From an uncultured Clostridium sp. (GTDB taxonomy: Bacteria; Bacillota; Clostridia; Lachnospirales; Lachnospiraceae): a stretch of DNA of 40,929 nucleotides. The stretch spans positions 1 to 40,929 of the forward strand of contig CAMNRM010000047.1 of NCBI GenBank assembly GCA_946553025.1, written 5' to 3'. Below the pieces are notes generated by a model. That model was given only the letters and a program-made list of their open reading frames with translations. It did not search any database and was not told where the DNA came from. This document shows, piece after piece, positions 10,395 through 38,542 of the stretch (within the stretch, counting starts at the first letter, position 1; the number at the start of each line of letters is the position of its first letter). A program made the position numbers and the translations under genes.

Positions 10395-10463
10395 GAACGC
10401 TTGTTGCTGTGATCGTGTGAACAGCAACGAACGCTTGTTACTGTGATATAGTAACAAATGCTT
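10395..10463. repeat. Two tandem copies (A and B) of the mini-palindrome element with 8-bp flanking repeats
   Basis: Copy A (10403-10428, 26 bp) has ends GTTGCTGT and ACAGCAAC and is bounded on both sides by GAACGCTT (10395-10402 and 10429-10436). Copy B (10437-10455, 19 bp, GTTACT...AGTAAC) follows directly. It is bounded by the same GAACGCTT and by AAATGCTT (10456-10463), a 6/8 match that abuts the ATP-grasp stop codon. In RNA both form hairpins. Confidence 0.85.
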
Positions 10464-11669
10464 TTATTGCTGGCTGGCGCGAAGGGCTAAGATATCCTGG
10501 TAGAAGGCATCCACTTCTTTCTGGGAGTTAAAGATAGCCACATACATTTGATTTCCCATGGCGTCGGAAAGTGCGTCAGGGATACGGTCAATCATTTTAA
10601 TCTGTGCGCCGTATTTTTCCAAAATATCCGTGTGGCTCATGGCAAAATCTTTATCGTCCCTACGCCCGGCAAATGCACAGTAATGGTGTTTGCCGATTGG
10701 CATGGTGGATCGGTCAAAGGCAATCATATCCGCCCAGATCTTATAGACATCCGTATTGTGGGCAAAGTCAATCATATCGGGGGTGAACCCGCCGCTCGGG
10801 CGCATATTGACTTCCAGTGCGACAAGATCCCCGGTTTTTCCAAGGCCTTCCTGATCCTTGGTCAGACGGAAGAATTCAAAATGAACGAAGCGGCTTTTTA
10901 CGCCGAAGCTTTTTACGGTAGCGCGTCCGGCAGCCCGTGTGTCTTCCGGCAGGGTTTTTAAGATATAGTAAATGGAGTTGTCGTTGTGATTGACAATGTC
11001 CATAATGGAAATCGGGGAAACATTGCCGGTTTCAAACATGGGCTCGCCGTTGGAGTCGATTATAGCATCGTAGGAGTTGACCTCGCCGTTAATATATTCT
11101 TCCATAATATACTGGGTATTCGGCCATTTCAGTTCAAAAAAGCGGCGGAGTTCGTGTTCGTCTTCCAGCTTAAAGGTGTGGGATGCGCCTACGCCGTTAT
11201 CCGGTTTGGCGACAATAGGATAGCCGACCTTATTTGCAAATTCGACACAGCTTTCGGGGTCATCGACCATGTGGTAGCGGGCTACGGGGATTTTTGCCTG
11301 GATATAGTATTCTTTCATCTTGGATTTTAACTTAATCCGCGGGATATCCCAGACCTGGAAACCGCTGGTAATATTAAAATCCGTGCGGAGTTTGGCATCG
11401 CGCTCAAGCCAGTATTCGTTGTTGGATTCAAGCCAGTCAATGCGCCCGTGCTTAAAGGTTAAGAAGGCAACACCGCGGTAAACCTCATCATAGTTTTCAA
11501 GATTGCTTACCTTGTAATACTCATTTAAGCTGTCTTTTAAATCGCTGGTCAGTTCATCGTAGGGCTGATCGCCGATACCTAAGACATTCAGTCCGTTCTT
11601 TTTCAGTTCCCGGCAGAACTGCCAGTAATTTGTGGGGAAATTGGGGGAAATAAAAATAAAATTTTTCAT
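10464..11669 (-). CDS. ATP-grasp carboxylate-amine ligase of unknown substrate
   Basis: A 401-residue soluble enzyme with an ATP-grasp fold, the type that activates a carboxylate as acyl phosphate and joins it to an amine or thiol. Visible elements are an N-terminal Rossmann-like domain (1-110), a nucleotide-binding lysine in PIVAKPDNGVGA (K155), the adenine-contact strand YIMEEYI (190-192) and metal ligands in HFEFF (E265) and LEVNMRPSGG (E286, N288). I chose ATG 11669, with AAAGGA 8 bases upstream, over a start 27 codons earlier that runs through a mini-palindrome element. It is the last gene of a minus-strand unit with two esterases and is flanked by mini-elements. The product is unknown. 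Confidence 0.88.
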   Translation of the reverse strand: MKNFIFISPNFPTNYWQFCRELKKNGLNVLGIGDQPYDELTSDLKDSLNEYYKVSNLENYDEVYRGVAFLTFKHGRIDWLESNNEYWLERDAKLRTDFNITSGFQVWDIPRIKLKSKMKEYYIQAKIPVARYHMVDDPESCVEFANKVGYPIVAKPDNGVGASHTFKLEDEHELRRFFELKWPNTQYIMEEYINGEVNSYDAIIDSNGEPMFETGNVSPISIMDIVNHNDNSIYYILKTLPEDTRAAGRATVKSFGVKSRFVHFEFFRLTKDQEGLGKTGDLVALEVNMRPSGGFTPDMIDFAHNTDVYKIWADMIAFDRSTMPIGKHHYCAFAGRRDDKDFAMSHTDILEKYGAQIKMIDRIPDALSDAMGNQMYVAIFNSQKEVDAFYQDILALRASQQ

Positions 11670-11677
11670 TGTGCTGT

Positions 11678-11718
11678 CCTTTCTGGTTACAGTGACGTGT
11701 GAAGCGTAACCCTTTCTG
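11678..11718. repeat. Mini-palindrome element copy H with perfect 8-bp flanking repeats
   Basis: The element (11686-11710, 25 bp, GTTAC...GTAAC) is bounded by CCTTTCTG on both sides (11678-11685 and 11711-11718). It lies in the leader of the ATP-grasp gene. Read on the minus strand the direct repeat is CAGAAAGG, so the duplication carries a second copy of that gene's Shine-Dalgarno sequence. Confidence 0.85.
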
Positions 11719-11777
11719 TAGTGACGGTTGTGCCTGCCTGCGGTTGACAAAGGATAAGGTATACGGGCTGTGTGGCT

Positions 11778-12530
11778 TTAATCTAAAAGGTAGGGAAGGA
11801 AATAAAGAACCTGTTTATACCACCAGTACCAGTCGTGGGTGCAGTCATTGCCCCAGAAATCTACCCAGGCGGGGATGCCCTTGCTCTGTAAGATGCCCTG
11901 AAGCTGACGGGTGGAGTCCGGCAGTTCCCACGAACCCTGTCCCACACAGATTGCGGCCTTTTTCAGGGAGTAGATAGGGATGTAGGGATGGTCAAGGGGC
12001 ATGTTGGCCAGGTAATGCACGGGGGAGTTGGCATAAACCAAATCGTCCATATAGCGTCCGAAGCCGTATTCTGCCGTGTAAATCCCGCTGAGTGCCAGAA
12101 GGCGGTCAAAGAGATCCGGACGGCGGAAGTAAAGGTTGGCTGCATGTGTGGCACCTAAGCTGCAGCCAAAAACCATAATTCCGGGATAGCCAGTCCAGCC
12201 GTTCGCTTCATTGACCGTATGGCGCATAAAGGGTACGAATTCATCCGTAATATAGCGGAACCACTGTTCATGGCGCTCGATACGCCAGCGGGCATCGCCG
12301 GATGCATTCGACCAGGTTTCCTTGTCGATGGTGTCAATGGAAAAGACCATAACTTTTCCGGAGTCAATCCAGGGCTGCCAGGTATCGGTCATCTTAAAAT
12401 TTTCAAAATCGAAAAAGCGCCCGTCCTGGCAGGGGATGAACAGCACCGGACGTCCGGCATGGCCGTAAATCTTACATTCCATATCGCGGTTAAGCGAAGG
12501 GCTGTACTGCTTTAGATATTGTACGTTCAT
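11778..12530 (-). CDS. Alpha/beta-hydrolase, esterase D-like
   Basis: A soluble hydrolase of about 250 residues. The nucleophile elbow is FGCSLGA (G122-C-S124-L-G126). A late histidine in GNDCTHDWYWW (about H231) fits the catalytic base. The N terminus (RDMECKIYGHAGRPVLFIPCQDG) gives the first strands and oxyanion region of the fold. There is no signal peptide. GGAGG lies 4 bases before the ATG. The upstream bases ACAGAATGGAGG are shared with the preceding esterase gene. Its acid residue is not certain. Substrate is unknown; placement between another esterase and an ATP-grasp ligase suggests hydrolysis of an ester, thioester or amide in the same pathway. Confidence 0.85.
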   Translation of the reverse strand: MNVQYLKQYSPSLNRDMECKIYGHAGRPVLFIPCQDGRFFDFENFKMTDTWQPWIDSGKVMVFSIDTIDKETWSNASGDARWRIERHEQWFRYITDEFVPFMRHTVNEANGWTGYPGIMVFGCSLGATHAANLYFRRPDLFDRLLALSGIYTAEYGFGRYMDDLVYANSPVHYLANMPLDHPYIPIYSLKKAAICVGQGSWELPDSTRQLQGILQSKGIPAWVDFWGNDCTHDWYWWYKQVLYFLPYLLD

Positions 12531-12617
12531 TTTGCCTCCATTCTGTGTTCAAGGGTTATAAGGATGCTTTGTTTTTTAATCTAATTCGGCTTAAGGAAGA
12601 GAAGAATCAAATCCTTA

Positions 12618-13376
12618 TTAGTATAGTAAAGTACGCATAAAGAAAGGAATCTGCTTCTCCCAGCTTGCCTCACAGTGATCGCCTCCGGGAACAATCCGGC
12701 AGTCTAATAAAACCTGGTGTTCCAAAAGCCGGGACGCTGTTTTTCTGAACTGGTAGGCCATATTTTTATGGTGCGAGAGTTCATTGGAACCATAGTCCAT
12801 ATAGATAACCGTGTCCGGCTGCAGAGAAGAACGGCGGATCAGCCATTCCAGTTTATCCGGGGCAGTCCAGAGCGAAGGGGAGAGGGCGGCAGCACGGGAA
12901 AATACAGAATTGTATTCCAGAACGGCATAAAGGCTCATCAGTCCTCCCATGGAACTTCCGGCGATAAAGCAGTGTTCTCTTTCCGGCAGGGTACGGAAGC
13001 GCTGGTCGATATCCGCTTTAAAACGGTGAATCATCCAGTTCATGGTCAGCTTTCCCCAGCCTTCAATCAGACCTAAAGAAGGGTCACGGAAACTAAAAGG
13101 AGAATATTCTTTGAGCCGCCCGTGATCCGGGCTGTGGTTGCACTCTACGGCGGCAATCAGCATCTGTGTGTTGGTGTAGTCCATGTACTCTTTCATTCCC
13201 CAGGATTTTCCATAGGTGGCGTCGGAATCAAAAAATACATTGTGGCCGTCAAACATATAAAGTACGGGGTATCGTCTGTCGGGTTCATAGTCATAGGACT
13301 CCGGCAGGTAAAGATAGGCATTCCTGGTTTCCTTCCCCGTCAGTTCAGGAATGGTAACATCCCATTGCAAGACCAT
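12618..13376 (-). CDS. Alpha/beta-hydrolase, enterochelin-esterase-like (Fes/BesA type)
   Basis: A 252-residue soluble esterase. RRYPVLYMFDGHNVF is the typical N-terminal strand of the putative-esterase family. The nucleophile is S142 in AGSSMGG, the acid is probably Asp in IYMDYGSNE, and the base is His in PGGDHCEASWEKQIP. Members cleave ester bonds of siderophores, acylated sugars or formylglutathione. It is the first gene of the minus-strand unit, with a good promoter at 13472-13500 and GGAGG 7 bases before the ATG. There is no siderophore gene nearby, so the enterochelin name should not be taken literally. Confidence 0.87.
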   Translation of the reverse strand: MVLQWDVTIPELTGKETRNAYLYLPESYDYEPDRRYPVLYMFDGHNVFFDSDATYGKSWGMKEYMDYTNTQMLIAAVECNHSPDHGRLKEYSPFSFRDPSLGLIEGWGKLTMNWMIHRFKADIDQRFRTLPEREHCFIAGSSMGGLMSLYAVLEYNSVFSRAAALSPSLWTAPDKLEWLIRRSSLQPDTVIYMDYGSNELSHHKNMAYQFRKTASRLLEHQVLLDCRIVPGGDHCEASWEKQIPFFMRTLLY

Positions 13377-13471
13377 TTTCTGTCCTCCATTCTGTAAAAC
13401 GGACTACCCGGAGCCGTCAAAGGATAACCGATATGGTTGGGCAGAGATTCCGGGTCGTCGTGATTAGGTTA

Positions 13472-13500
13472 AATATAGCACAAGCAGGAAGAAATTTCAA
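13472..13500 (-). promoter_or_regulatory. Sigma-A promoter of the esterase/ATP-grasp unit
   Basis: On the minus strand, TTGAAA (13500-13495), a 17-bp spacer and TATATT (13477-13472). It is divergent from the cyclophilin promoter, with the two -35 boxes only 20 bp apart, so a shared regulator could act on both. Confidence 0.75.
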
Positions 13501-13520
13501 CTTGCATCCATGAACGCCAC

Positions 13521-13549
13521 TTGCCCAAAAACAAAGGATATGCTATAAT
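13521..13549 (+). promoter_or_regulatory. Sigma-A promoter of the cyclophilin gene
   Basis: TTGCCC (13521-13526), a 17-bp spacer and TATAAT (13544-13549) with an extended TGC before the -10 box. It lies 50 bp before the chosen start. Confidence 0.85.
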
Positions 13550-13598
13550 CGTGCAAGAAGATTAAACAAAAAATGCAGGAATGAAGGAGAATAAGAAG

Positions 13599-14117
13599 AT
13601 GGAGAATCCAATAGTAACGATTGAGATGGAAAACGGCGATGTGATTAAAGCAGAACTTTATCCGGAAGTTGCACCGAATACGGTGAATAATTTTATCAGC
13701 CTGGTGCAGAAGGGATTTTATAACGGGCTGATTTTTCACCGTGTCATTGCCGGGTTTATGATTCAGGGCGGATGTCCGGACGGTACGGGCATGGGCGGTC
13801 CGGGATATTCGATTAAGGGTGAGTTTAAGCAGAACGGCTTCCAGAACGACCTCTGCCATACCCCGGGTGTGCTTTCCATGGCGCGTGCGATGTCACCGGA
13901 CTCGGCTGGTTCTCAGTTCTTTATCATGCATGAAACTTCTCCGCATTTAGACGGGGCTTATGCAGCCTTTGGTCAGGTTATGGAAGGAATGGACGTGGTG
14001 AATAAGATTGCCGCGGTTCGCACCGACTACAGCGATCGTCCCATGAAGGAGCAGAAGATTGCCAAGATGACAGTAGAAACCTTTGGACAGACCTATCCGG
14101 AACCGGAAAAGTGCTGA
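13599..14117 (+). CDS. Cyclophilin-type peptidyl-prolyl cis-trans isomerase
   Basis: A 172-residue cytoplasmic cyclophilin that isomerises Xaa-Pro bonds. The core signatures are FHRVIAGFMIQGGCPDGTGMGGPGY (split here at the FHR arginine and FMIQGG), SMARAMSPDSAGSQFFI and HLDGAYAAFGQVMEGMDVV. There is no signal peptide. The earlier ATG at 13581 is rejected because AAGGAG (13584-13589) lies inside that extension and sits 9 bases before ATG 13599. The stop overlaps the next start by one base, so it is co-translated with the GNAT gene. Confidence 0.96.
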   Translation: MENPIVTIEMENGDVIKAELYPEVAPNTVNNFISLVQKGFYNGLIFHRVIAGFMIQGGCPDGTGMGGPGYSIKGEFKQNGFQNDLCHTPGVLSMARAMSPDSAGSQFFIMHETSPHLDGAYAAFGQVMEGMDVVNKIAAVRTDYSDRPMKEQKIAKMTVETFGQTYPEPEKC

Positions 14118-14854
14118 TGAAAAAAGAATATTCCGTGATTGTGGAAAAAACAGCTTATCCTGTCCTTTTCTCGGATGAAAAAGAAGCTCTTCTGGCGGCA
14201 AAGGCTGCCGGGAGGGCTGTTCTTGGCTTATGGGATGCAGGGTGTCCGGAAAATATCCCCGCAGAGATTCCTTATCTGGTGGAGGATGAAGCGCAGGTTA
14301 CGGAAGAATTTCTGGAGCGTCTGGTTCGCCGGTTTTTAAACCTTCCCTGGATTATCGCTAAAACCCGCCGTCTGCGGATAAGAGAATTTATTCCCGGTGA
14401 TTGGGAAAGGATTTCGGCTTTTTTTGGAAATGATCCCCGGAAAATATTTGGGCAGACCTTTACCGACGGGGAATGTCCGGCGGTATTTGCCGATGAATGG
14501 GCATTTCTTTCCTACATCCGTGTTCAGTATCCCTTTTATGAGTATGGGATCTGGGCGGTGGAGGAAACAGAGAGCCATGAACTTATCGGGGGCTGCGGTT
14601 TTTGGGACGGAGAAATGGGAGAAACCGAGATTGGCTACTGGATTTTTCCGGCTTTTCAGCGAAGGGGCTATGCCAAAGAAGCCGTACAGGCCGTACTTGC
14701 TTATGCGAGAGATCTGGGAAAAATCCCTATATATGCACAAATCCGGGAAGAGAATCTCCCCTCCCGGAAATTAGCGGAAAAATTACAGTTTATTCTCCTT
14801 CCAGAGCAAAGTCAATCCAGGAAATTACGGTATCGATACGCGCCGTATTATTGA
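14117..14854 (+). CDS. GNAT-family N-acetyltransferase with an N-terminal extension
   Basis: A 245-residue protein. Residues from about 85 form a GNAT domain of the ribosomal-protein-alanine acetyltransferase type (TRRLRIREFIPGDWERISAFF; ELIGGCGFWDGEMGETEIGYWIFPAFQRRGYAKEAVQAVLAYA, the acetyl-CoA loop being QRRGYA). The first 80 residues (YPVLFSDEKEALLAAKAAGRAVLGLWDAG) resemble a HAD-phosphatase motif region without the catalytic Asp, so they are probably structural or regulatory. The ATG overlaps the cyclophilin stop by one base. The last 65 bp overlap the 3' end of the convergent gene. The acceptor substrate is unknown. Confidence 0.9.
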   Translation: MKKEYSVIVEKTAYPVLFSDEKEALLAAKAAGRAVLGLWDAGCPENIPAEIPYLVEDEAQVTEEFLERLVRRFLNLPWIIAKTRRLRIREFIPGDWERISAFFGNDPRKIFGQTFTDGECPAVFADEWAFLSYIRVQYPFYEYGIWAVEETESHELIGGCGFWDGEMGETEIGYWIFPAFQRRGYAKEAVQAVLAYARDLGKIPIYAQIREENLPSRKLAEKLQFILLPEQSQSRKLRYRYAPYY

Positions 14855-15473
14855 CAATGCCCAGATAACACGGATTCATGTCTATACCGGTTTTTTTACA
14901 GAAATAAGAATCACTGAGATCGATGCCGCAGGGGATCTCCTCTCCGGCTTCATTTTTGCCGTAATAGACAAAGGGTTCCACCTTCTGCCATAAATCTTTG
15001 GGAAGAGTTTCTTTGAGATTGCGAAAGCCGTCAAGCTCGGCATAGTGGTCGATGTTAAGCTGATCGCAGATAAGGATATCCAGATCCTGTGCGGCAACCA
15101 GGGCGGAAACCTTGGCCATATTGCCGTACTCCATCTCGGAAATGACATCCCCATAGCGGATAACCATAGAACCGTCCGCTTCGATAACATCCTTTTTTCC
15201 GTAGCCCATGACTGCCTTAAACTCCTCATTAAATTCCTCAAAGGAATAGTCCGGGCTGAAGTTATTGATGGTTGCGTAGGACAGCTGCGTGGTGAAGGTT
15301 TTATTATAAAAGATTTCACCAATCAGGCCAAGCAGCATAAATAAGCCAATAAGAATAAAAATATGGATTTTATAGTATTCCCAGATATACCAGGCCCTGT
15401 CTTTGGGCGGCATGTTTTTCAATTTTTCCCGTTCTTTGGTTCCTTCTTCTTTTAAATGTTCTTTCCACGACAT
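14790..15473 (-). CDS. Unknown single-pass membrane protein
   Basis: I do not recognise this protein of 227 residues (236 if the upstream ATG at 15500 is used). GAGGTG lies 6 bases before ATG 15473, while the longer start has no Shine-Dalgarno sequence. A charged N-terminal region (KEHLKEEGTKEREKLKNMPPKDRAWYIWEYYKIH) leads into one transmembrane helix (IFILIGLFMLLGLIGEIFY). A soluble alpha/beta domain of about 165 residues lies outside. The external part (DLDILICDQLNIDHYAELDGFRNLKETLP) is reminiscent of periplasmic-binding-like folds, but this is weak. Its 3' end overlaps the GNAT gene by 65 bp. Confidence 0.75.
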   Translation of the reverse strand: MSWKEHLKEEGTKEREKLKNMPPKDRAWYIWEYYKIHIFILIGLFMLLGLIGEIFYNKTFTTQLSYATINNFSPDYSFEEFNEEFKAVMGYGKKDVIEADGSMVIRYGDVISEMEYGNMAKVSALVAAQDLDILICDQLNIDHYAELDGFRNLKETLPKDLWQKVEPFVYYGKNEAGEEIPCGIDLSDSYFCKKTGIDMNPCYLGIVNNTARIDTVISWIDFALEGE

Positions 15474-15543
15474 TTTTGGCACCTCGTTTTGATTTTCCAT
15501 GGATTCCAGTGTTTTTTACATGTTGACGGATAAAAATCCCCGG

Positions 15544-15571
15544 ATTTTACCGTTTATTGTGAATGATGCAA
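15544..15571 (-). promoter_or_regulatory. Possible promoter of the unknown membrane protein
   Basis: On the minus strand, TTGCAT (15571-15566), a 16-bp spacer and TAAAAT (15549-15544), about 70 bp before the chosen start. Match quality is moderate. Confidence 0.5.
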
Positions 15572-15642
15572 AGCCCATTTCAACAGTATAGCACAGTTTG
15601 CGCCCCTGTGTTGTAAATTTTTTATGAATTTGTCAAGATAAT

Positions 15643-15671
15643 TTGCTTTTTGCTTTAAAGTCCGCTATACT
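15643..15671 (+). promoter_or_regulatory. Sigma-A promoter of the YesL-like gene
   Basis: TTGCTT (15643-15648), a 17-bp spacer and TATACT (15666-15671). The leader of about 100 nt contains mini-palindrome copy C. Confidence 0.75.
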
Positions 15672-15716
15672 TACTATCGAACGGAATCCTATACAGTCAA
15701 GGGCAGTACATTTTGG

Positions 15717-15742
15717 GTTGCTGTGAATATGTGAACAGTAAC
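15717..15742. repeat. Mini-palindrome element copy C
   Basis: A 26-bp copy with ends GTTGCTGT and ACAGTAAC; one more base pair (G/C) extends the stem on each side. Unlike the other copies it has no convincing 8-bp flanking repeat (4/8 match), so it may be old. It lies between promoter and ribosome binding site of the YesL-like gene and would be transcribed as a hairpin. Confidence 0.75.
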
Positions 15743-15780
15743 CGGTTCTGCTGGAATTTTTCAGAAGAGAGGTAGATACG

Positions 15781-16521
15781 ATGTTGCAAGGAATTTTTAA
15801 TTATGACAATCCTGTATGGCGTCTTATTGGAAAGCTGGGCGATCTGATGATTTTAAACATCCTGTGGGTTATCTGCAGTATTCCGATTTTTACCATGGGT
15901 GCTTCGACAACGGCTGTTTACTACGTGACCATGAAGCTGGTCCGCGGGGATGACGGCTACACGTTCCGCAACTATTTTAAATCCTTTAAGGAGAATTTTA
16001 AGCAGGCAACCGCGATTTGGCTGTTAATGCTTCTGACCGGATTTATCCTGGGCTTTGATTTATATTTCTTTTTGCGGGTATTGACCGGAAATTCTGTGTT
16101 CCGCACGGTATTTACCGCAGCTATCGGTGCGCTGAGTATGATCTGGCTCTGTATATTCAGCTATGTCTTCCCGCTGCAGTGCCGTTTCTATAACCCTGTG
16201 AAGAGAACCTTATTTAATGCGTTCTTTATGTCCATCCGCCATTTTTTCCATACTCTGGGAATGTTGGTGCTGGATGTACTGGTTGTGGTGTTCTTTATTT
16301 TTTCCATTTACTATATGCCGCAGGTCACGGTATTGTCGATTATGTTCGGCTTTCCGCTGATTGCCTTTATTAACTCTTATATTTTAAATCCCATCTTTAA
16401 CAAGTATATTCCGGAAGAGGAGAAGCAGGAAAATCCGGATGAACTGCGGCCGATTTTACAGGACGTGGTGATTGAACATCCGGAAAAGAAAAACGACGAG
16501 GAAAAAGAAGAAGAAAAATAA
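15781..16521 (+). CDS. YesL-like (DUF624) integral membrane protein
   Basis: A 246-residue polytopic membrane protein. The start (NPVWRLIGKLGDLMILNILWVICSIPIFTMGASTTAVYYVTMKLVRGDDGYTFRNYFKSFKENFKQA, shown by its key parts LGDLMILN and GASTTA) is the signature of the DUF624/YesL family. About five helices are visible: near residues 20-42, 75-98, 110-135, 155-180 and 182-202. A charged Glu/Lys-rich cytoplasmic tail follows. In other Firmicutes, yesL lies near carbohydrate transport genes, but none are here. AGAGAGG precedes the ATG. Function is unknown. Confidence 0.85.
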   Translation: MLQGIFNYDNPVWRLIGKLGDLMILNILWVICSIPIFTMGASTTAVYYVTMKLVRGDDGYTFRNYFKSFKENFKQATAIWLLMLLTGFILGFDLYFFLRVLTGNSVFRTVFTAAIGALSMIWLCIFSYVFPLQCRFYNPVKRTLFNAFFMSIRHFFHTLGMLVLDVLVVVFFIFSIYYMPQVTVLSIMFGFPLIAFINSYILNPIFNKYIPEEEKQENPDELRPILQDVVIEHPEKKNDEEKEEEK

Positions 16522-16551
16522 CTTTTTGACTGTTTTAGTTGCGATAATGAC

Positions 16552-16580
16552 TTGTATTTTTCTGGAAAACGCTATATACT
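16552..16580 (+). promoter_or_regulatory. Sigma-A promoter of ispE-gntR
   Basis: TTGTAT (16552-16557), a 17-bp spacer and TATACT (16575-16580). The start would be near 16587, leaving a leader of about 115 nt that contains a palindrome just after the start site. Confidence 0.75.
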
Positions 16581-16595
16581 TTCTTTATAAGAATA

Positions 16596-16605
16596 TTGTA
16601 TACAA
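16596..16605. promoter_or_regulatory. TTGTATACAA palindrome, candidate GntR (FCD) operator
   Basis: A perfect 10-bp palindrome about 10 bp downstream of the predicted start site. It has the shape of operators bound by FadR/FCD-type GntR proteins. The regulator encoded second in this transcript is of that type. Outer bases GAATA (16591) and TATTC (16612) add a wider, looser symmetry. Confidence 0.6.
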
Positions 16606-16700
16606 AATAATGTATTCTTAAAACAAGAAAAAAACAATTAAAAACATTGAAAAACAATCGATGAAACTTTCTTATCAGCCAGTAAAGTTGAGGACGAGCA

Positions 16701-17588
16701 ATGACTACACATTTAAAATTAAAGGCTTACGGAAAAATTAATCTTGCCCTGGATGTTCTCAGGAAGAGAGAGGACGGCTATCACGATGTGCGGATGATTA
16801 TGCAGACGGTAGGGATTTATGACCAGTTGGAACTTCAGGCTACCCGCAAGCCGGGGATTGCCGTAGAAACCAACTTATCCTATCTTCCGGTCAATGAAAA
16901 TAACCTGGTTTATCAGGCGGCAAAGCTGCTTATGGATGAATTTTCGGTTAAAAGCGGCATCCACATCACCCTGCGCAAGTTTATTCCGGTAGCTGCCGGC
17001 ATGGCCGGGGGAAGCAGTGACGCTGCATCGGTGCTTTTTGGCGTCAATAAGATGTTTAATCTGGGGCTTTCCCGGGAGGAACTGATGAAGCGGGGCGTAA
17101 AGATTGGCGCGGATGTTCCGTACTGTCTTCTGCGCGGAACGGCGCTTTCCGAGGGAATCGGCGAAAAATTAACCCCCCTTCCCGCCATGCCGCAGTGCCG
17201 GGTGCTGATTGCAAAGCCCGGGATCAGTGTTTCAACCAAGCTGGTTTATGAAAATCTGAACATCAATGCGAGGAGCAGGGACTGCCATCCGGATATTGAC
17301 GGGATGATTCAGGCAATTCAAAAACAGGATCTTTTGGGAGTGGCCAAAAAATTCGGCAATGTTCTGGAACTGGTGACGGCAGAAAAGTACCCGGTTATCG
17401 AAGAAATCAAGGCGGTGATGAAGAAAAACGGTGCCCTGAATGCTTTGATGAGCGGGAGCGGGCCTACGGTTTTTGGATTGTTTACGGATGAAAGGGCAGC
17501 CCAGAAGGCTTATGAAGAACTGCGCTACGGTTCGCTGGCCTCTCTTGCCAAACAGGTTTACCTGACCAATCTGTTTAACCGTCGGTGA
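16701..17588 (+). CDS. ispE: 4-diphosphocytidyl-2-C-methyl-D-erythritol kinase
   Basis: A 295-residue GHMP kinase that phosphorylates CDP-methylerythritol with ATP in the MEP isoprenoid pathway. The N-terminal strand LKAYGKINLALDVLRKREDGYHDVRMIMQ (key parts GKINLALDV and DGYHD) is specific for IspE. The ATP loop PVAAGMAGGSSDAASVL starts at P96. The third GHMP motif is LMSGSGPTVFGLF near residue 252. AGGA lies 7 bases before the ATG. It is followed after 28 bp by the GntR regulator, an arrangement that suggests co-transcription. Full length. Confidence 0.97.
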   Translation: MTTHLKLKAYGKINLALDVLRKREDGYHDVRMIMQTVGIYDQLELQATRKPGIAVETNLSYLPVNENNLVYQAAKLLMDEFSVKSGIHITLRKFIPVAAGMAGGSSDAASVLFGVNKMFNLGLSREELMKRGVKIGADVPYCLLRGTALSEGIGEKLTPLPAMPQCRVLIAKPGISVSTKLVYENLNINARSRDCHPDIDGMIQAIQKQDLLGVAKKFGNVLELVTAEKYPVIEEIKAVMKKNGALNALMSGSGPTVFGLFTDERAAQKAYEELRYGSLASLAKQVYLTNLFNRR

Positions 17589-17616
17589 AACAACAGAAAA
17601 CACAGGAGGAGATTTT

Positions 17617-18309: not shown

Positions 18310-18367
18310 ACAAACAGGGTATATTGTGGGCGGTTTATAAAAAATTGTAAAAAAAAGATAAACTCTA

Positions 18368-18396
18368 TTGACAAAGTGACAACCTGTCATTATTAT
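18368..18396 (+). promoter_or_regulatory. Consensus sigma-A promoter of the tetR-RND operon
   Basis: TTGACA (18368-18373), a 17-bp spacer and TATTAT (18391-18396). The spacer and the start site are both covered by TetR-type palindromes. Confidence 0.88.
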
Positions 18397-18415
18397 AGGT
18401 GACAGGTTGTCACTT
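18374..18415. promoter_or_regulatory. Double TetR-type operator
   Basis: AAGTGACAACCTGTCA (18374-18389) and its exact reverse complement (18400-18415) form a 16-bp inverted repeat around the -10 box. Each arm is itself a palindrome TGACA-NNN-TGTCA (18377-18389 and 18400-18412). Two dimers could therefore bind, one in the spacer and one at the start site, 23 bp apart. The TetR gene is the first in the operon, so it is probably the ligand. Confidence 0.85.
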
Positions 18416-18420
18416 TTCTT

Positions 18421-18460
18421 GTTTTAGGAAGCTTTAGGAAACTTCAGGCAGGTTTAGGAA
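18421..18460 (+). repeat. Four degenerate 10-bp direct repeats in the tetR leader
   Basis: Units GTTTTAGGAA, GCTTTAGGAA, ACTTCAGGCA and GGTTTAGGAA lie between the operator and the tetR start. They could be a slippage product or a protein or RNA site. No function can be assigned. Confidence 0.6.
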
Positions 18461-18530
18461 AAAAGCGAAAAGGATTTTTGTCTTCCAAAGATGGAGAGAA
18501 GTGGCCAAAGCGGGGAAAGGATGAGTAAAG

Positions 18531-29306: not shown

Positions 29307-29312
29307 GGAATG

Positions 29313-29489
29313 TGCACTATTATGGCGGCGTGGGCCTAAAGATAGGCTTATTTTGCCTGAAAAGGAAATAATCATCATTAAATATCGAAATAACCAAGGC
29401 AGTTATGTAGGAATCTGCTGCTGTGAACATGTAAACAGGAACAGGAATCCAGACGGCTGCCAACTAAGAAAACAGGGGTGAAACGTCAT
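29313..29489 (+). promoter_or_regulatory. rpoB leader with competing hairpins and a mini-palindrome element
   Basis: This 177-nt leader fills the gap before rpoB. GCCTA (29334-29338) can pair with TAGGC (29343-29347), followed by TTATTTT, a small terminator-like form. Alternatively AGGC (29344-29347) can pair with GCCT (29355-29358). The two forms exclude each other, which suggests attenuation. Mini-palindrome copy D lies at 29417-29442. The rest, including 29164-29277, shows no gene. Confidence 0.45.
29409..29450. repeat. Mini-palindrome element copy D with 8-bp flanking repeats (7/8)
   Basis: The element (29417-29442, 26 bp, GCTGCTGT...ACAGGAAC) is bounded by AGGAATCT (29409-29416) and AGGAATCC (29443-29450). 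It lies about 30 bp before the rpoB Shine-Dalgarno sequence. Confidence 0.75.
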
Positions 29490-32400
29490 ATGGAGAAAAG
29501 CAGGATGCGTCCGGTGAAGGCCGGTAAGAGCATGAGAATGAGCTTCTCAAGGCAGAAGGAAGTTCTTGAGATGCCCAACTTGATCGAGATTCAGAAAAAC
29601 TCTTATCAGTGGTTCTTGGAAGAAGGACTGAAAGAGGTTTTTGAGGACATCTCTCCCATTGCAGACTTTGCCGGCCATTTAAGTTTGGAATTCGTGGACT
29701 TTAAGCTGTGCAAAGATGATATTAAGTACAGTATTGAGGAGTGCAAGGAGAGAGATGCTACGTATGCAGCGCCTTTGCAGGTGAAAGTACGTCTTTGTAA
29801 TAAGGATAAAGCTGACGAGATTAACGAACACAAGATTTTCATGGGTGATCTTCCGCTGATGACGGATACCGGTTCTTTTGTGATTAACGGCGCAGAGCGT
29901 GTTATCGTAAGCCAGCTGGTTCGCTCCCCTGGTATTTATTACGGCATTGCCCATGATAAGGTGGGAAAGGAACTGTATTCCTGTACGGTTATCCCCAACC
30001 GTGGTGCATGGCTGGAATATGAAACAGATTCCAACGATATCTTTTATGTCCGTGTAGACCGGACGAGAAAGGTTCCCGTAACCGTGCTGGTTCGTGCCCT
30101 TGGATTTGGGACGAATGCAGAGATTCTGGATTTATTCGGCGAGGAACCAAAGATCCTGGCAAGCTTCGGAAAAGACCCCTCGGAAACCTATGAGGACGGT
30201 CTTTTGGAACTGTACCGAAAGATTCGGCCAGGCGAGCCGCTGAGTGTGGATAGTGCAAAAAATCTGTTGGAACTGATGTTTTTTGACCCCAGAAGATACG
30301 ATTTGGCAAAAGTCGGAAGATATAAATTTAATAAAAAGCTGCATTTCAGAAACCGGATCAAGGGCCACACCCTGGCAGAGGATGTGGTAAACACCAGCAC
30401 CGGTGAGATTTTGGCGGAAGCGGGTACGATAGTGGATAAGGATCTGGCGGATAAGATTCAGAATGCGGCAGTTCCGTTTGTGTGGATTGAAGGCCCCACA
30501 AGAAAGCAGAAAGTTCTTTCTAATTTAATGGTTGATTTAAGTTCCTATGTTTCCTTTGACCCGAAGGAAGCAGGGGTAACGGAGCTGGTATTCTATCCGG
30601 AACTGGAAAAGATTCTGGATGAGTACGGCCAGAATGAGGAAGAACTTAAGGATGTGATTTCCCGCAGCGTTCATCAGCTTGTTCCCAAGCACATTACGAG
30701 GGAAGATATTCTTGCTTCCATTAACTATAATATGCATCTGGAAGAGGATGTGGGAACGAAGGATGATATTGACCATTTGGGAAACCGAAGAATCCGTGCG
30801 GTCGGCGAACTTTTACAGAACCAGTACCGGATTGGCCTTTCCCGTATGGAGAGGGTTGTCCGCGAGAGGATGACGACGCAGGATGTGGATTCGCTTACCC
30901 CGCAGTCCTTAATTAATATTAAGCCGGTGACGGCAGCCGTGAAGGAGTTCTTTGGAAGTTCACAGCTGTCCCAGTTCATGGATCAGAACAATCCATTGTC
31001 CGAACTCACCCATAAGCGGCGTCTGTCGGCATTGGGTCCCGGCGGTCTGTCCAGAGAGAGGGCCGGTTTCGAGGTTCGTGACGTACACTATACGCACTAT
31101 GGCCGTATGTGTCCGATTGAAACCCCTGAAGGTCCCAACATCGGTCTGATTAACTCGTTGGCCTGCTATGCCCGGGTGAACCAGTACGGTTTTGTCGAGG
31201 CACCTTACCGCGTAGTGGATAAGACCGACCCGATGAATCCTGTGGTTACGGATGAAGTGGTTTATCTGACCGCGGACGAAGAAGATAATTTTATCGTGGC
31301 ACAGGCGAACGAGCCTTTAGATGAAGAGGGTCACTTTGTTCATAATAATGTATCCGGGCGTTTCCGCGAGGAAACTTCCGAGTTCCAGAAAAAGAATATT
31401 GACCTGATGGATGTTTCCCCGAAGATGGTATTCTCCGTGGCTACTTCCATGATTCCTTTCCTGCAGAATGACGATGCCAACCGCGCCCTGATGGGTTCAA
31501 ACATGCAGCGTCAGGCTGTTCCTCTGCTCCGCACGGAAGCTCCGGTTGTGGGTACGGGAATTGAAGGAAAGGCAGCGGTGGACTCCGGCGTGTGCGTGGT
31601 TGCGAAAAACGCAGGCACGATTGAGCGCTCCGCGTCGAATGAAATCATTATCCGCAGGGATAAGGACAACCAGAAGGATGTTTACCGCCTGACAAAGTTT
31701 AAGCGAAGCAACCAGTCGAACTGTTATAACCAGAAGCCCATTGTCTTTAAGGGGATGCACGTGGAAGCCGGAGAGGTTATCGCGGACGGGCCTTCTACGG
31801 ATAACGGTGAAATTGCTCTGGGAAAGAATCCGCTGATTGGGTTTATGACCTGGGAAGGCTATAACTACGAGGATGCGGTTTTATTAAGCGAGCGTCTGGT
31901 GCAGGAGGATGTATATACCTCTGTGCATATTGAAGAATATGAGGCCGAGGCCAGGGATACCAAGCTTGGGCCGGAAGAGATTACCCGCGATGTTCCCGGT
32001 GTGGGTGAGGATGCCTTAAAGGATCTGGATGAGCGGGGCATTATCCGTATTGGTGCAGAGGTCCGTGCAGGAGATATCCTGGTGGGCAAGGTTACGCCGA
32101 AAGGGGAAACCGAGCTGACCGCGGAGGAGCGTCTGCTTCGTGCAATCTTTGGCGAGAAGGCGAGAGAAGTGCGCGATACTTCCCTGAAGGTTCCGCACGG
32201 CGCTTACGGGATTATCGTTGACGCAAAAGTATTTACCCGGGAAAACGGCGATGAATTAAGCCCCGGAGTAAACCAGACCGTCCGTATTTACATTGCCCAG
32301 AAGAGAAAGATTTCTGTGGGCGATAAGATGGCCGGACGTCATGGAAACAAGGGCGTGGTTTCCCGAGTGCTTCCGGTGGAAGATATGCCGTTTTTACCGA

Positions 32401-33362
32401 ACGGGCGTCCGCTGGATATTGTATTAAATCCTCTGGGCGTGCCTTCCCGTATGAATATCGGACAGGTACTGGAGATTCACTTAAGCCTTGCCGCAAGGGC
32501 ACTTGGGTTTAATATTTCCACCCCGGTATTTGACGGGGCAAACGAGATGGATATTATGGATACCCTGGATGTGGCGAATGACTATGTCAACACGGAATGG
32601 GAAGATTTCCAGGAAAAATATAAAGATACGTTAAAACCGGAGGTTCTGGACTATCTGGGAAGCCATCTGGAACACCGCGCAGTCTGGAAAGGGGTTCCCT
32701 TAAGCCGGGACGGCAAGGTGCGCCTGCGTGACGGGCGGACGGGTGAGTATTTTGACAGCCCGGTTACGATTGGACACATGCATTATCTGAAGCTTCATCA
32801 TCTGGTGGATGATAAGATTCATGCGCGTTCGACCGGCCCATACTCCTTAGTTACCCAGCAGCCGCTGGGCGGAAAGGCACAGTTTGGCGGACAGCGTTTC
32901 GGCGAGATGGAAGTCTGGGCGCTGGAGGCTTATGGTGCATCCTACACCCTGCAGGAGATTCTGACCGTGAAGTCGGATGATGTTGTGGGACGTGTAAAGA
33001 CCTATGAGGCGATTATCAAGGGTGAAAATATCCCTGAACCGGGAATTCCGGAATCCTTTAAGGTATTGTTAAAGGAGCTGCAGTCCCTGGGTCTGGATGT
33101 CAAAGTGCTTAGGGATGATAACACCGAAGTTGAACTCAGTGAGAACATCGACTACGGTGATACGGATCTGCGCTCGATTATCGAGGGCGACCGCCGCTAT
33201 CAGGATGAAGAGTCCTTTGCCGACTACGGCTATCAGGAGCAGGAATTTAAGAATGATGAACTGGTGGCTGTTGATGACGAGGATGATTACGAGGATGAAC
33301 CCGACGCATATCTGGACGATTTGGATGATGACGGATATGACGATTCGGATGAGGAAGAATAA
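29490..33362 (+). CDS. rpoB: DNA-directed RNA polymerase beta subunit
   Basis: A 1290-residue beta subunit of RNA polymerase. ATG 29490 has GGGGTGA 8 bases upstream, whereas the in-frame GTG at 29478 is part of that signal. The rifampicin pocket reads [16 protein letters not shown] at 490-505. D498, H508 and S513 (E. coli 516, 526 and 531) are wild type. The hybrid-binding and flap motifs are intact ([12 protein letters not shown] form as [14 protein letters not shown]). The last 50 residues form an acidic tail ([20 protein letters not shown]), longer than in many bacteria. rpoC follows after 21 bp. The usual rplJ-rplL genes are not upstream. Confidence 0.99.
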
Positions 33363-33383
33363 GATAGAAGGGAGTATGCGCTC

Positions 33384-36300
33384 ATGCCAGAAACGAATGA
33401 AACTTATCAGCCCTTAACTTTTGATGCAATCAAAATCGGCCTGGCTTCTCCGGAGAAAATATTAGAGTGGTCCCACGGCGAAGTAAAAAAGCCGGAAACC
33501 ATTAACTACCGAACCTTAAAGCCGGAAAAAGACGGTTTGTTCTGCGAGAGGATTTTCGGACCTACTAAGGACTGGGAGTGTCACTGCGGCAAGTATAAAA
33601 AGATTCGCTATAAAGGTGTGATCTGCGACCGGTGCGGCGTGGAAGTTACAAAAGCCAGTGTCCGCAGGGAGCGTGTCGGCCATATCGCTTTGGCTGCTCC
33701 TGTATCCCATATCTGGTATTTTAAAGGAATTCCTTCCCGGATGGGATTGATTTTGGATATTTCTCCAAGGACTTTGGAGAAGGTGCTGTATTTTGCTTCC
33801 TATATTGTATTGGACCCCGGCCAGACCGGACTGCAGTATAAGCAGGTATTGTCGGAAAAGGAATACCGGGAAGAGGTGGAAAAGAACGGTTACGGCTCTT
33901 TTCGCGTAGGAATGGGTGCGGAGGCGATCCAGGAGCTTTTAAAGGCCATCGATCTGGAAAAGGATTCGGAGGTTCTGCGCAAAGGCTTAAAGGATGCTTC
34001 CGGACAGAAGCGGGCAAGGATTATCAAGCGTCTGGAAGTGGTTGAAGCCTTCCGCAACTCGGGCAATAAGCCGGAGTGGATGGTGATGGATGTTATTCCG
34101 GTTATCCCGCCGGATATCCGCCCGATGGTACAGCTCGACGGCGGACGTTTTGCAACCTCGGATTTGAATGACTTATACCGCCGGATTATTAACCGGAACA
34201 ACCGTCTGGCAAGGCTTCTGGAACTTGGCGCTCCGGATATCATTGTCCGGAACGAAAAGCGTATGCTTCAGGAGGCTGTGGATGCCCTGATTGACAACGG
34301 GCGCCGCGGACGTCCGGTAACGGGGCCCGGAAACCGTGCCTTAAAGTCCTTATCCGATATGCTTAAAGGTAAGCAGGGACGATTCCGTCAGAACCTGTTG
34401 GGAAAACGTGTGGATTATTCCGGGCGTTCGGTAATCGTCGTCGGGCCGGAGTTAAAGATTTACCAGTGCGGCCTGCCCAAAGAGATGGCGATTGAACTTT
34501 TTAAGCCCTTTGTTATGAAGGAACTGGTGTCGAACGGCACCGCGCACAATATTAAAAATGCAAAGAAGATGGTGGAACGCCTTCAGCCGGAGGTGTGGGA
34601 CGTTTTGGAGGATGTTATTAAAGAGCATCCGGTCATGTTAAACCGTGCGCCCACCCTGCACCGTCTGGGTATCCAGGCATTTGAGCCGATCCTTGTGGAA
34701 GGTAAGGCGATTAAGCTTCACCCGCTGGTTTGTACGGCGTTTAACGCGGACTTTGACGGCGACCAGATGGCTGTCCATCTGCCGCTTTCGGTAGAAGCAC
34801 AGGCAGAGTGCCGTTTCCTGCTTCTTTCGCCGAATAACCTGTTAAAGCCCTCCGACGGCGGCCCTGTGGCTGTTCCGTCCCAGGATATGGTTCTTGGCAT
34901 TTACTATCTGACCCAGGAGCGCCCGGGAGCAAAGGGTGAGGGCAGTATCTTTAAGAGTGTAAACGAGGCGATTCTTGCCTATGAGAATAAAGCCGTAACC
35001 CTGCATACCCGTGTTACCGTGCGGGTAAGCAAGGAAAAGCCGGACGGTTCTGTAAAGACCAGTATTATCGAATCCACCGTGGGACGGTTCATCTTTAATG
35101 AGATTATCCCGCAGGACCTTGGCTTTGTGGATCGTAGCATTCCGGAAAATGAATTAAAGCTGGAAGTTGACTTCCATGTAGGAAAGAAGCAGTTAAAGCA
35201 GATCCTGGAAAAAGTTATCAATGTCCATGGGGCAATCCAGACCGCGATTACCTTAGACGATATCAAGGCCATTGGCTATAAGTTCTCGACCAGGGCGGCG
35301 ATGACCGTATCGATTTCGGATATGACCGTGCCGGAGTCCAAGAAAAAGCTGATTGCCGATGCACAGGATACCGTTGACCATATTTCCAAGAACTTCCGCC
35401 GCGGTCTGATTACGGAGGAAGAGCGCTATAAAGAGGTTATTGAAACCTGGAAGAATACGGACGACCAGTTGACTCACGATCTGCTGACCGGACTGGATAA
35501 GTACAACAATATCTTTATGATGGCGGACTCCGGTGCCCGTGGTTCCGATAAGCAGATTAAGCAGCTTGCCGGTATGCGCGGACTGATGGCCGATACCACC
35601 GGACATACGATTGAACTTCCGATTAAGTCCAACTTCCGTGAGGGCCTGGACGTACTGGAGTACTTTATCTCTGCGCACGGCGCGAGAAAGGGACTGAGCG
35701 ATACGGCTCTGCGTACCGCCGACTCCGGTTATCTGACCCGAAGACTGGTTGACGTATCGCAGGATTTGATTATCCGTGAAGTGGACTGCTGTGAGGGCGG
35801 AGAGATTCCGTACATGGAGATTAAAGCCTTTATGGATGGAAGGGAAACCATAGAATCCCTGGAAGACCGTCTGACCGGGCGTTATATTGCCGAAACGATC
35901 ACCGATCCGGATACCGGAGAAATCGTGATTAAGGCAAACCATATGTGTACCCCCAAGCGGGCCAAGGCCGTTATTCAGGTACTGGAAAAGACCGGGCGTC
36001 AGTCCGTAAAGATCCGTACCGTGCTTTCCTGTAAATCCCATATCGGCGTGTGTGCCAAGTGCTACGGTGCGAACATGGCCACCGGACAGCCGGTGCAGGT
36101 GGGTGAGGCTGTAGGTATTATTGCAGCGCAGTCCATCGGTGAGCCGGGTACGCAGCTGACTATGAGAACCTTCCATACCGGCGGTGTAGCGGGCGGCGAT
36201 ATTACTCAGGGTCTTCCCCGTGTCGAGGAACTTTTCGAGGCGAGAAAGCCGAAGGGACTTGCCATTATCACGGAGTTTGCCGGCGCAGTGGCGATTAAAG

Positions 36301-37097
36301 ATACCAAGAAAAAACGGGAGATTACCGTTACCAATAATGAAACCGGAAATTCCAAGACCTATCTGATTCCCTATGGTTCCCGAATTAAGGTTCAGGAGGG
36401 CCAGTATCTGGAAGCCGGTGATGAACTGACCGAGGGTTCCGTGAATCCGCACGATATCTTAAAGATTAAAGGCGTGCGGGCGGTACAGGACTATATGATC
36501 CAGGAAGTACAGCGTGTATACCGCTTACAGGGTGTGGATATTAATGACAAGCACATCGAGATGATTGTCCGCCAGATGCTTAAGAAAGTTAAGGTCGAGG
36601 AGAGCGGCGACAGCGATGTTCTGCCCGGCGTATCCATGAATGTCCTGGAGTTTAATGAGATGAATGACCGGCTGATTGCCGAGGGCAAGCTTCCGGCGGA
36701 AGGAAAGCAGGTTATGCTCGGTATCACCAAGGCATCCCTGGCTACCGATTCCTTCCTCTCCGCGGCATCCTTCCAGGAAACAACCAAGGTGCTGACCGAA
36801 GCTGCAATTAACGGAAAGGTTGACCATTTGATCGGCCTGAAGGAAAATGTGCTTATCGGTAAGCTGATTCCTGCCGGTACGGGCATGAAGCGCTACCAGA
36901 ATGTAAAACTCAATACGGATCTTCTTATGGAAGATGAAATTTTCTTTGATGAAGATGAAGATTTTGAGGATGAAGAAATTCTGGAAAACGATGCAGAACC
37001 GGATTTCATGGAAGATGAGGATGACATCATCGACGAAGATATGGATGACGAAGAAGGGATGGAAGAAGTCCTGGATTTCGGCGACGAAGAATTGTAA
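33384..37097 (+). CDS. rpoC: DNA-directed RNA polymerase beta' subunit
   Basis: A 1237-residue catalytic subunit. The N-terminal zinc site uses C66, C68, C81 and C84. The active-site loop [12 protein letters not shown] carries the three magnesium aspartates D456, D458 and D460. The trigger-loop region contains [32 protein letters not shown] (key part TFHTGGVA). GAAGGGAG lies 9 bases before the ATG. Like RpoB it ends in a very acidic tail of about 50 residues ([20 protein letters not shown]). A strong terminator follows. Confidence 0.99.
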
Positions 37098-37153
37098 TAC
37101 AGCATATCTTGGTTATAAAAACGGTATGTTAAAGGATAACGATAAAGAACAGT

Positions 37154-37193
37154 AAAAAAGAGAGCCTGCAGGAAAAATGCGGGTTCTCTTTTT
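37154..37193. terminator. Bidirectional intrinsic terminator after rpoC
   Basis: AAAAAGAGAGCC pairs with GGGTTCTCTTTTT over a short interrupted stem; the U-tract is inside the distal arm on both strands. It ends rpoBC and also the convergent wall-protein gene, whose stop is 14 bp further. Confidence 0.88.
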
Positions 37194-37206
37194 AACCTTT
37201 TTTATA

Positions 37207-38313
37207 TTAGTTCGTACCGGGCCCTCCGGTCTTTCCGGCAGCCAGACCGTTAGAACCGGAAGGGGTACTGGATGCCGAACCGCTCTGGGTATTCCCGGGA
37301 CCTCCGGTAGAGCCGGGGGTCAGGCCGTCAGAGGAAGAAGTGGGTGCATTGCTTCCGGAATTTCCGGAGTTTGTATTCGGTGCAGTCGAAGAACCGCCGG
37401 GGCCGTAGGTGGTGGAAGAGGAGTTTGTCTGGTTGGTATTGCCGGAAACTCCTGGAGGATTGGCAACCACCGCGTTAACTCCTGCGGCATTCTGGCAGGA
37501 ACCATCGACATTGAAGACATAGTTTGTGCCGTTAATATTCAGCGTTGTGTTAGCAACCATGCGGCCGGTGTTTGGATCGAGGTAATAGTACTTATTGCCC
37601 ACCTGAATCCAGCCGGTCATCATATGGCCTGCATTGTTAAAGTAGTAGTAGGCACTGTCAATTTCTTTCCAGGTGCGTGCCATCTTTCCGGATTCCGGGT
37701 CCATATAGTATTTATTTGTGCCGTCGCTGAGCCAGCGGGTGAGCATCTTGCCGTCAGAACTGTTTAAATAGTAGTAATCGCCGTTAATCTCATTCCAGCC
37801 GGTAACCATCTTGCCGTCTGTGCCGAAATAGTACCAGGAACCGTCAATCTGCCTCCACGCACCGACAACGCAGCGTCCGTCATCGCGGAAATAGTACCAG
37901 GCATTATCCATAAAACGCCATCCGATGTACATGGAACCGTCGCTCCGGAGATAGTAGTAATTATCGCCTTCCTTCAGCCAGCCCTTGACCATGGTTCCGT
38001 CCTGCCACATATAGTAATATTTGCCCTCGACCTTAATCCAGCCTAAAGCCATCAAACCATTAGGGTTGAAATAGTACCATTTACCGTCGATTTGTTTCCA
38101 GCCTAAGGTCATGTGGCCATCGGAGAGATCCATGTAATAATAGCCGTCACTGGTCTGAATCCAGCCCTTGCGGGTAGTTCCGTTTGCTTCTATGTAAATC
38201 CAGCTGTTTCCCGATGCCGTCCATCCGGCAGCCATGGAATCCATAGCAGGGGCAAACATCAAAAGGCCAAAAAGACCGGCTGTAGCGGCAGCTTTTCCCA
38301 AAGTGTGTTTCAT
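37207..38313 (-). CDS. Choline-binding-type wall repeat protein (CW_binding_1 repeats)
   Basis: A 368-residue exported protein. The signal peptide ends at SMAAG (about residue 29). About eleven repeats of some 20 residues follow (for example GWKQIDGKWYYFNPNGLMAL and GWNEINGDYYYLNSSDGKML), with the Gly-Trp and aromatic pattern that binds choline in teichoic acids or similar wall sugars. Residues from about 280 form a disordered Gly/Ser/Asn/Thr/Pro tail. There is no catalytic domain. AAGGAGG precedes the ATG. Its leader contains mini-palindrome copy E. The neighbouring upstream gene encodes a choline kinase/cytidylyltransferase fusion, which fits choline as ligand. Confidence 0.9.
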   Translation of the reverse strand: MKHTLGKAAATAGLFGLLMFAPAMDSMAAGWTASGNSWIYIEANGTTRKGWIQTSDGYYYMDLSDGHMTLGWKQIDGKWYYFNPNGLMALGWIKVEGKYYYMWQDGTMVKGWLKEGDNYYYLRSDGSMYIGWRFMDNAWYYFRDDGRCVVGAWRQIDGSWYYFGTDGKMVTGWNEINGDYYYLNSSDGKMLTRWLSDGTNKYYMDPESGKMARTWKEIDSAYYYFNNAGHMMTGWIQVGNKYYYLDPNTGRMVANTTLNINGTNYVFNVDGSCQNAAGVNAVVANPPGVSGNTNQTNSSSTTYGPGGSSTAPNTNSGNSGSNAPTSSSDGLTPGSTGGPGNTQSGSASSTPSGSNGLAAGKTGGPGTN

Positions 38314-38351
38314 TTATTTCGTCCTCCTTGTTCTGATAGGTTTGTAATGGA

Positions 38352-38419
38352 TAAACCTAGTTACTGTTCATGCAGGTCTGCACACCTGCTGCGCTGCATG
38401 GGAACAGGAACTAAACCTA
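38352..38419. repeat. Mini-palindrome element copy E with perfect 8-bp flanking repeats
   Basis: The element (38360-38411, 52 bp) starts GTTACTGTTCATGCAGG and ends GCATGGGAACAGGAAC. It is bounded by TAAACCTA on both sides (38352-38359 and 38412-38419). An inner stem GCAGGT/ACCTGC (38372-38389) is nested in the outer one. It lies in the leader of the wall repeat protein. Confidence 0.88.
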
Positions 38420-38486
38420 TTCTAGTATAACATAAGTGTAAAAAGATTGCTTAACAAATTTATTACGATTTTACCGGAGTGCAGCG

Positions 38487-38542
38487 GGAAGTTAGTTACT
38501 GTTCATGTAGGTCTGCGCACATGTGAACAGTAACGTAAGTTA
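38487..38542. repeat. Mini-palindrome element copy F with 8-bp flanking repeats (7/8)
   Basis: The element (38495-38534, 40 bp) has an 11-bp perfect stem (GTTACTGTTCA/TGAACAGTAAC). It is bounded by GGAAGTTA (38487-38494) and GTAAGTTA (38535-38542). It shares an AGGTCTGCRCAC core with copy E. It lies just downstream of the choline kinase fusion gene. Confidence 0.85.

Follow-up and report, generated by a model that had tools for sequence, protein, structure and literature searches.

Minute palindromes of a Lachnospiraceae genome, best read as size-reduced members of one family of miniature inverted-repeat transposable elements with IS66-like ends

Small dispersed repeats of cyanobacteria were reportedly treated by Elhai in 2008. 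One of them, SDR5, is cited in PMC4390886 as inserting inside HIP1 sites, and bacterial miniature inverted-repeat transposable elements (MITEs) are given as 70-300 bp long in PMC3733652 and as about 100-400 bp long in PMC3116915. The elements described here are seven palindromes of 19-52 bp in contig CAMNRM010000047.1 of an uncultured Clostridium species of the Lachnospiraceae (assembly GCA_946553025.1). The whole 40,929-bp stretch of this contig that was analysed is called the window, and the draft genome to which it belongs, G000, which is 99.75% complete, is called the own genome. The palindromes do not form a separate element class and are best read as shortened members of a single MITE family whose ends resemble those of IS66; on this best reading, the 19-52-bp elements of the window are deletion forms of that family. 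Neither the palindrome and MITE family nor its tip letters are described among the open-access literature matches listed.

The parent element is a 132-bp MITE that starts with GTTACTGTTCACRYAGGTCTGCGCACYTG and ends with GTTGCTGTGAACGTGTGAACAGTAAC. Its left tip reads GTTACTGT and is followed by two internal hairpins; the right end is a palindrome in its own right, made up of an inner tip (GTTGCTGT), about 10 bp, and an outer tip (ACAGTAAC). Many 26-bp palindromes (26-mers) that lack a duplication at their own left edge are the right end of this 132-bp element, and in these cases the duplications flank the whole 132 bp. Seventeen distinct full copies were scored in the own genome, with flanks identical at 8/8 positions in seven, at 7/8 in six, and at no more than 4/8 in four. 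Together with copies from other genomes of the genus (congeners), there are 31 distinct full-length MITEs, a count that leaves out two spurious spans (L017 and L020); 17 of these score 8/8 and 26 score at least 7/8. The inverted tips of 11 bp are paired in 98.8% of cells across 23 aligned copies.

The 26-bp and 132-bp forms are bridged by copies of 24, 40, 47, 51, 52, and 54 bp, whose duplications score from 6/8 to 8/8. Not every intermediate retains its duplication, as a 51-bp span in L029 has flanks of only 3/8. Measured against the usual MITE range of about 70-400 bp, the 132-bp form lies inside and the 26-bp form below. The original prediction, made from the window alone, held that elements of 26 bp are far smaller than ordinary MITEs; the commonest form here is 26 bp and falls far below the cited ranges. 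As a separate observation, 44 bp from the left side of the MITE lie at positions 2449-2492 of L039 (minus strand); the right tip is missing, and the 8-bp left flank, AATCTTTT, is repeated exactly and directly behind this part.

The 26-bp form is matched at 247 places in the own genome when up to two mismatches are allowed and right ends of longer copies are included, while a reversed-pattern control is matched at seven. A strict 26-bp pattern is matched 64 times in the own genome and nowhere in 40 relatives, ten congeners among them. Flanks were compared at lengths 4 to 12 for 149 spans bounded by inverted tips, drawn from the window and loci L001-L093 and including nested and spurious spans. 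At length 8, they are fully identical in 34 of the 149 spans, where 0.35 are expected from 200 reshufflings, and they agree at 7/8 or better in 53 (0.72 in reshufflings). Every other length from 4 to 12 yields zero or one fully identical span. The flank repeat is a genuine 8-bp target duplication, and flank identity at this length only, relative to shuffled controls, gives good support to the predicted insertion by way of an 8-bp staggered cut.

An exact pattern occurs at 69 places, 67 of which were examined; L124 was left out, and an identical pair at overlapping contig ends was merged. Stand-alone copies account for 47 of the 67, including L080, a clear solo copy that automated sorting had put with the MITEs. 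Their flanks score 8/8 in 19, at least 7/8 in 26, and at least 6/8 in 31, and two of the remaining 16 fit a 9-bp duplication (L073 at 3299 with 9/9 and L063 at 1000 with 8/9). Since the copies are small, palindromic, intergenic, and numerous, they recall REP-type palindromes, which depend on a RAYT tyrosine transposase for their movement. This origin is very improbable, being contradicted by the inverted tips and by duplications of exactly 8 bp, and by eye no GTAG or CGTC head stands beside the listed copies, although a RAYT gene was not searched for.

Outside the own genome, the strict 26-mer was found in only three further records, with flanks of 6/8, 7/8, and 5/8, in a contig scan for which about 0.2 matches are expected by chance; all three are Lachnospiraceae, which is the likely family of the own genome as well. 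Viral contigs gave no match to the 26-mer, the MITE core, or the 27-mer; both scans may omit records near the own genome. A search for paralogous empty sites among the fetched loci returned self matches and the L040/L043 contig-end overlap only.

All seven palindromes and their flanking octamers lie in the window where they had been predicted, with the same flank scores, including the absence of a duplication at 15717. The predicted ends GTTRC...GTAAC are present in five of the seven copies; the copy at 29417 has GCTGC...GGAAC instead, and the one at 38360 has GGAAC at its 3' end. The features are as follows.

10395..10402, no strand: left copy of the duplication GAACGCTT
10403..10428, plus strand: stand-alone 26-bp right-end palindrome, flanks 8/8
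10429..10436, no strand: GAACGCTT between two adjacent palindromes and common to both
10437..10455, plus strand: shortened 19-bp palindrome with flank AAATGCTT (6/8)
11678..11685, no strand: octamer CCTTTCTG, which reads CAGAAAGG on the minus strand
11686..11710, plus strand: diverged 25-bp palindrome with an 8/8 duplication
15717..15742, plus strand: 26-bp palindrome with 4/8 flanks, lying in the leader that precedes the DUF624 gene at 15781
29417..29442, plus strand: 26-bp palindrome with the ends GCTGC...GGAAC and 7/8 flanks, located upstream of the rpoB-like gene at 29478
38360..38411, plus strand: 52-bp form composed of a left-end part and a shortened right end, 8/8 duplication
38495..38534, plus strand: 40-bp form, flanks 7/8

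The octamer CAGAAAGG resembles a ribosome-binding site for the gene that starts at 11669 on the minus strand, so the duplication would leave one copy of this site beside the start codon. The window also encodes a TnpB-like protein at 260-1498, with OrfB_IS605 and Cas12f1-like TNB domains.

Three of these sites could be compared with congeners, in which the matched blocks are mostly 65-80% identical and base-exact empty sites could not be shown. Corresponding sites that are always filled would speak against insertion; the sites at 10403, 11686, and 15717 all lack the palindrome in these distant genomes. At 10403, the element is absent in all three congeners fetched and the flank is conserved up to TATGAAC, with G003 keeping GAACGGTT, 7/8 of the octamer, once at this place. 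At 11686, the palindrome is absent in all eight leader sequences obtained from eight of the ten congeners. At 15717, none of the ten congener leaders contains it; a single GTTGCTGT stands in one of them and a single ACAGTAAC in another. Another of the three congeners compared at 10403, G008, has a worn right end of the MITE at a distance of a few hundred bases. The neighboring segment of the window, 10162-10398, lies between two gene ends, has no long open reading frame, and is strongly conserved in three aligned congeners, with blocks around AGAAAAAGGGAGGAGAGCTGATTAT and TATGGTTAAAGTATAT. An Rfam scan of the window, this segment included, gave nothing at gathering score.

The MITE itself is widespread in the genus. 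BLAST with the 132-bp copy, with at most 40 candidates scored per genome, gives matches at E <= 1 in 10 of 11 genus genomes, the own genome included. Seven of the ten congeners (G001, G002, G003, G005, G008, G009, and G010) match at 4.1e-20 or better, G006 and G007 have weak matches only, and G004 has no match at E <= 1. Full congener copies measure 131-134 bp; they carry GTTACTGTTCAG or GTAACTGTTCAG at the tips, and their right-end palindromes are 28 or 27 bp long. The tips read GTTACTGTTCAC in the own genome and GTWACTGTTCAG in congeners. A directional search of the ten congeners found 53 places in five genomes, with zero in controls. Among the 49 places examined are 23 stand-alone 27- or 28-mers, not counting part-MITEs such as L195, L218, and L221; with flanks taken directly at the edges of the 27- or 28-mer, six of the 23 score 8/8, 11 score at least 7/8, and 15 score at least 6/8.

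Stand-alone right ends, as 26-, 27-, and 28-mers, therefore occur in three subfamilies, each identical with the MITE right end of its own subfamily. The same base change separates the subfamilies in all three tips (alignment columns 3, 110, and 133). In L118 of congener G001, at about 1620-1646, two more 12-bp units ending in ACAGTTAC adjoin the MITE right end.

The account that covers these data with fairly good probability is IS66-type insertion of the MITE, with the 26-mers arising mainly by deletion in situ. An IS66-family transposase acting in trans would cut the target with an 8-bp stagger and insert the 132-bp MITE there. Its left and inner tips are direct repeats 106 bp apart, and slippage or recombination could delete the sequence between them. 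Loss of 106 bp would leave the exact 26-bp palindrome inside the original 8-bp duplication, and deletion between the shorter TGCTG/TTGCTG repeats would yield the forms of 51-54 bp. By eye, the junctions of the 51- and 54-bp forms fall at TGCTG repeats.

Base 4 of the tips also bears on the origin of the 26-mers. Among stand-alone copies with duplications, the ratio of A to G is 16:16 in the left tip and 30:2 in the right tip (p = 0.0002), a comparison that leaves out the window and also L001-L009, the latter fetched with a G-only pattern. A duplication of at least 6/8 is retained by 13 of 14 stand-alone copies with the outer-left base A in the left tip, as compared with 18 of 33 with G (Fisher p 0.016, computed before one G copy was reassigned). 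Lower retention in the G copies is expected if many of those without a duplication are worn MITE right ends. We infer that deletion in situ is the main source of the 26-mers. A tandem array of 33-34-bp units of the MITE left end occurs in L244 (contig C37 of the own genome, about 38.95-39.11 kb) and suggests slippage or recombination at these repeats.

It is conceivable, though rather unlikely, that the 26-28-bp palindrome is instead a minimal transposon, whose inner and outer right tips form an inverted pair moved alone by the IS66-type transposase. The match of stand-alone 26-, 27-, and 28-mers to their own subfamily's right end, together with their 8-bp duplications, would fit such a unit, as would the subfamily change that the inner tip has in common with both outer tips and the inner-tip G of most solo copies (33 of 47). 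The other 14 carry the outer-left base A, and the near-universal duplication among them counts against it, as does the resemblance of the other sizes to internal deletions. A 26-bp duplex is, moreover, short and stiff for pairing two ends. As a tentative extension, the double-tip right end may be a transposon within a transposon, movable on its own by an IS66-type transposase; such units would be present side by side in three subfamilies of the genus and dominant in this species. If true, the 26-28-bp palindrome would be among the smallest DDE-type mobile units conceivable.

The original prediction had offered two origins, MITE-like hairpins mobilized in trans and scars from the excision of a larger transposon that has these tips. 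A larger element does exist, in the form of the 132-bp MITE, and the 26-mer is its right end, likeliest produced by direct-repeat deletion and not by transposase excision. The existence of larger elements with similar tips favors excision scars; however, the 26-mer is an intact stretch of the MITE right end and not a variable footprint, and the 51- and 54-bp junctions lie at direct repeats, as deletion predicts, which makes scars left by a transposase improbable.

IS66 is an insertion-sequence family whose tips are similar and whose duplications have the same length, and for these two reasons an IS66-type transposase probably inserted the MITE. L154, from another genus of the same bacterial family, is a complete 2,207-bp IS66-type element with GTTACTGTTCAG at both ends. 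Its 536-amino-acid protein scores 71.8 bits with PF03050 and 172 bits with NCBIfam NF033517, below the cut-off of 180. L153, also an IS66-type element, has the tips GTATCTGTTCAG and GTAACTGTTCAG. PF03050 matches are present in congeners G002 and G003; in G003, a contig ends just past an IS66-type gene with the tip GTTACTATTCACAG, and GTTACCATTCACAG lies about 2.3 kb earlier, with the flank duplication not readable because the element is at the contig end.

Relatives of the L137 protein occur in 126 plasmid records, from which 12 elements were examined. Nine of the 12, ISGst1 and ISGka4 among them, have GTAAC-type tips and perfect 8-bp duplications, values that are partly dependent on the ranking of ends, which required tip similarity first and also used the flank match. 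The tip GTAACTATTCAG is present in four of these nine and occurs in ISGst1 and ISGka4.

Other transposase families were weighed as movers. ISL3, IS6, IS1595, ISAs1, and IS1 leave 8-bp duplications, and those of IS256 are 8-9 bp long. The one intact IS256 element of the own genome (L094, contig C102) lacks such tips, and IS256 was rejected as the mover. Ends of another DDE family with an 8-bp stagger (such as ISL3, IS6, or IS1595) are an improbable substitute for IS66: the own genome has no IS66 gene and these three families were outside the search, yet the tips match those of the IS66-type L154 over 12 bp and resemble those of ISGst1 and ISGka4.

Several results weigh against IS66-type insertion followed by deletion. 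A MITE usually, though not necessarily, shares its genome with an autonomous parent, and the own draft genome has no IS66 transposase (zero matches to PF03050 and zero to the L137 protein). The mover is therefore missing or was present only temporarily, and the search for it covered IS66 and IS256 but not ISL3, IS6, IS1595, ISAs1, or IS1. The closest IS66-type elements, L153 and L154, have no 8-bp duplication of their own. Three of the 12 plasmid elements (L248, L249, and L252) lack supported ends plus a duplication, and L255, one of the nine with duplications, has the more distant tip GTAACTCCCAAG. A is more frequent in solo left tips than in MITE inner tips, but the difference does not reach significance (13:17 vs 4:17, p = 0.08; p = 0.13 in another count). 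No site was found at which one genome has the 132-bp form and another the 26-bp form. Finally, the 26-mers seem to outnumber full copies, with 247 places as compared with at least 22 distinct full-length rows (40 of 280 candidates scored); this surplus calls for frequent deletion or old age.

The predicted confinement to leaders or trailers broadly holds, as 8 of 55 stand-alone copies lie inside crude open reading frames, compared with 77.6% of random positions. Either selection or target choice would be expected to produce such avoidance of genes. Typical 26-mers form an 8-bp stem at -8 to -10 kcal/mol and may affect leaders. The prediction that all would form RNA hairpins stands for typical copies only, as the 11686 copy reaches just -1.4 kcal/mol, no better than shuffles. 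The MITE folds strongly, with z-scores of -4.5 and -5.8 on the two strands. Standard pairs fill 98.3% of 821 pair cells in the 23 aligned copies (96.2% in shuffles), and two-sided changes affect one tip pair and two pairs of one inner hairpin; covariation support is modest, since 75 of 500 shuffles also reach three pairs.

One 26-bp palindrome, at 829-854 of L079, forms part of the loop enclosed by an inverted repeat that resembles a terminator (GGAATCAGGG...CCCTGATTCC). This copy, the intergenic positions, and the 8-bp stem of typical copies are what selected regulator binding sites or RNA terminators with chance flank repeats might present. Flank repeats of exactly 8 bp at about 100 times the chance level, together with congener leaders that lack the element, leave that explanation with hardly any probability.

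The family offers a clear size ladder that runs from IS66-like ends through the 132-bp MITE to 26-bp remnants, many of which are still within their original 8-bp duplications. Very small palindromic repeats in bacterial leaders can derive from DDE transposons, and caution is warranted because unexplained intergenic hairpins may be worn MITE ends. The system also permits a direct test of the minimum length of a transposable unit.

Like bacterial MITEs, this family is non-coding and mostly intergenic, with terminal inverted repeats, target duplication, and strong hairpins, while its commonest form of 26 bp differs from their 70-400 bp. REP and REPIN sequences with their RAYTs are likewise small, numerous extragenic palindromes, whereas the 26-mers have no GTAG/CGTC head and do have an 8-bp duplication. 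In outline, the small dispersed repeats of cyanobacteria resemble the 26-mers in being repeated units of very small size with the behavior of inserted modules; SDR5 is cited as a HIP1-site inserter, whereas the 26-mers occupy varied sites with an 8-bp duplication and have a parent MITE. IS66 elements, including ISGst1 and ISGka4 in plasmid records H7 and H20, have GTAAC-type tips and 8-bp duplications, as in the MITE family. These elements are coding, about 1.4-2.2 kb long, with one annotated transposase gene, whereas the MITE family is non-coding and has its own tips, GTTACTGTTCAC/GTWACTGTTCAG.

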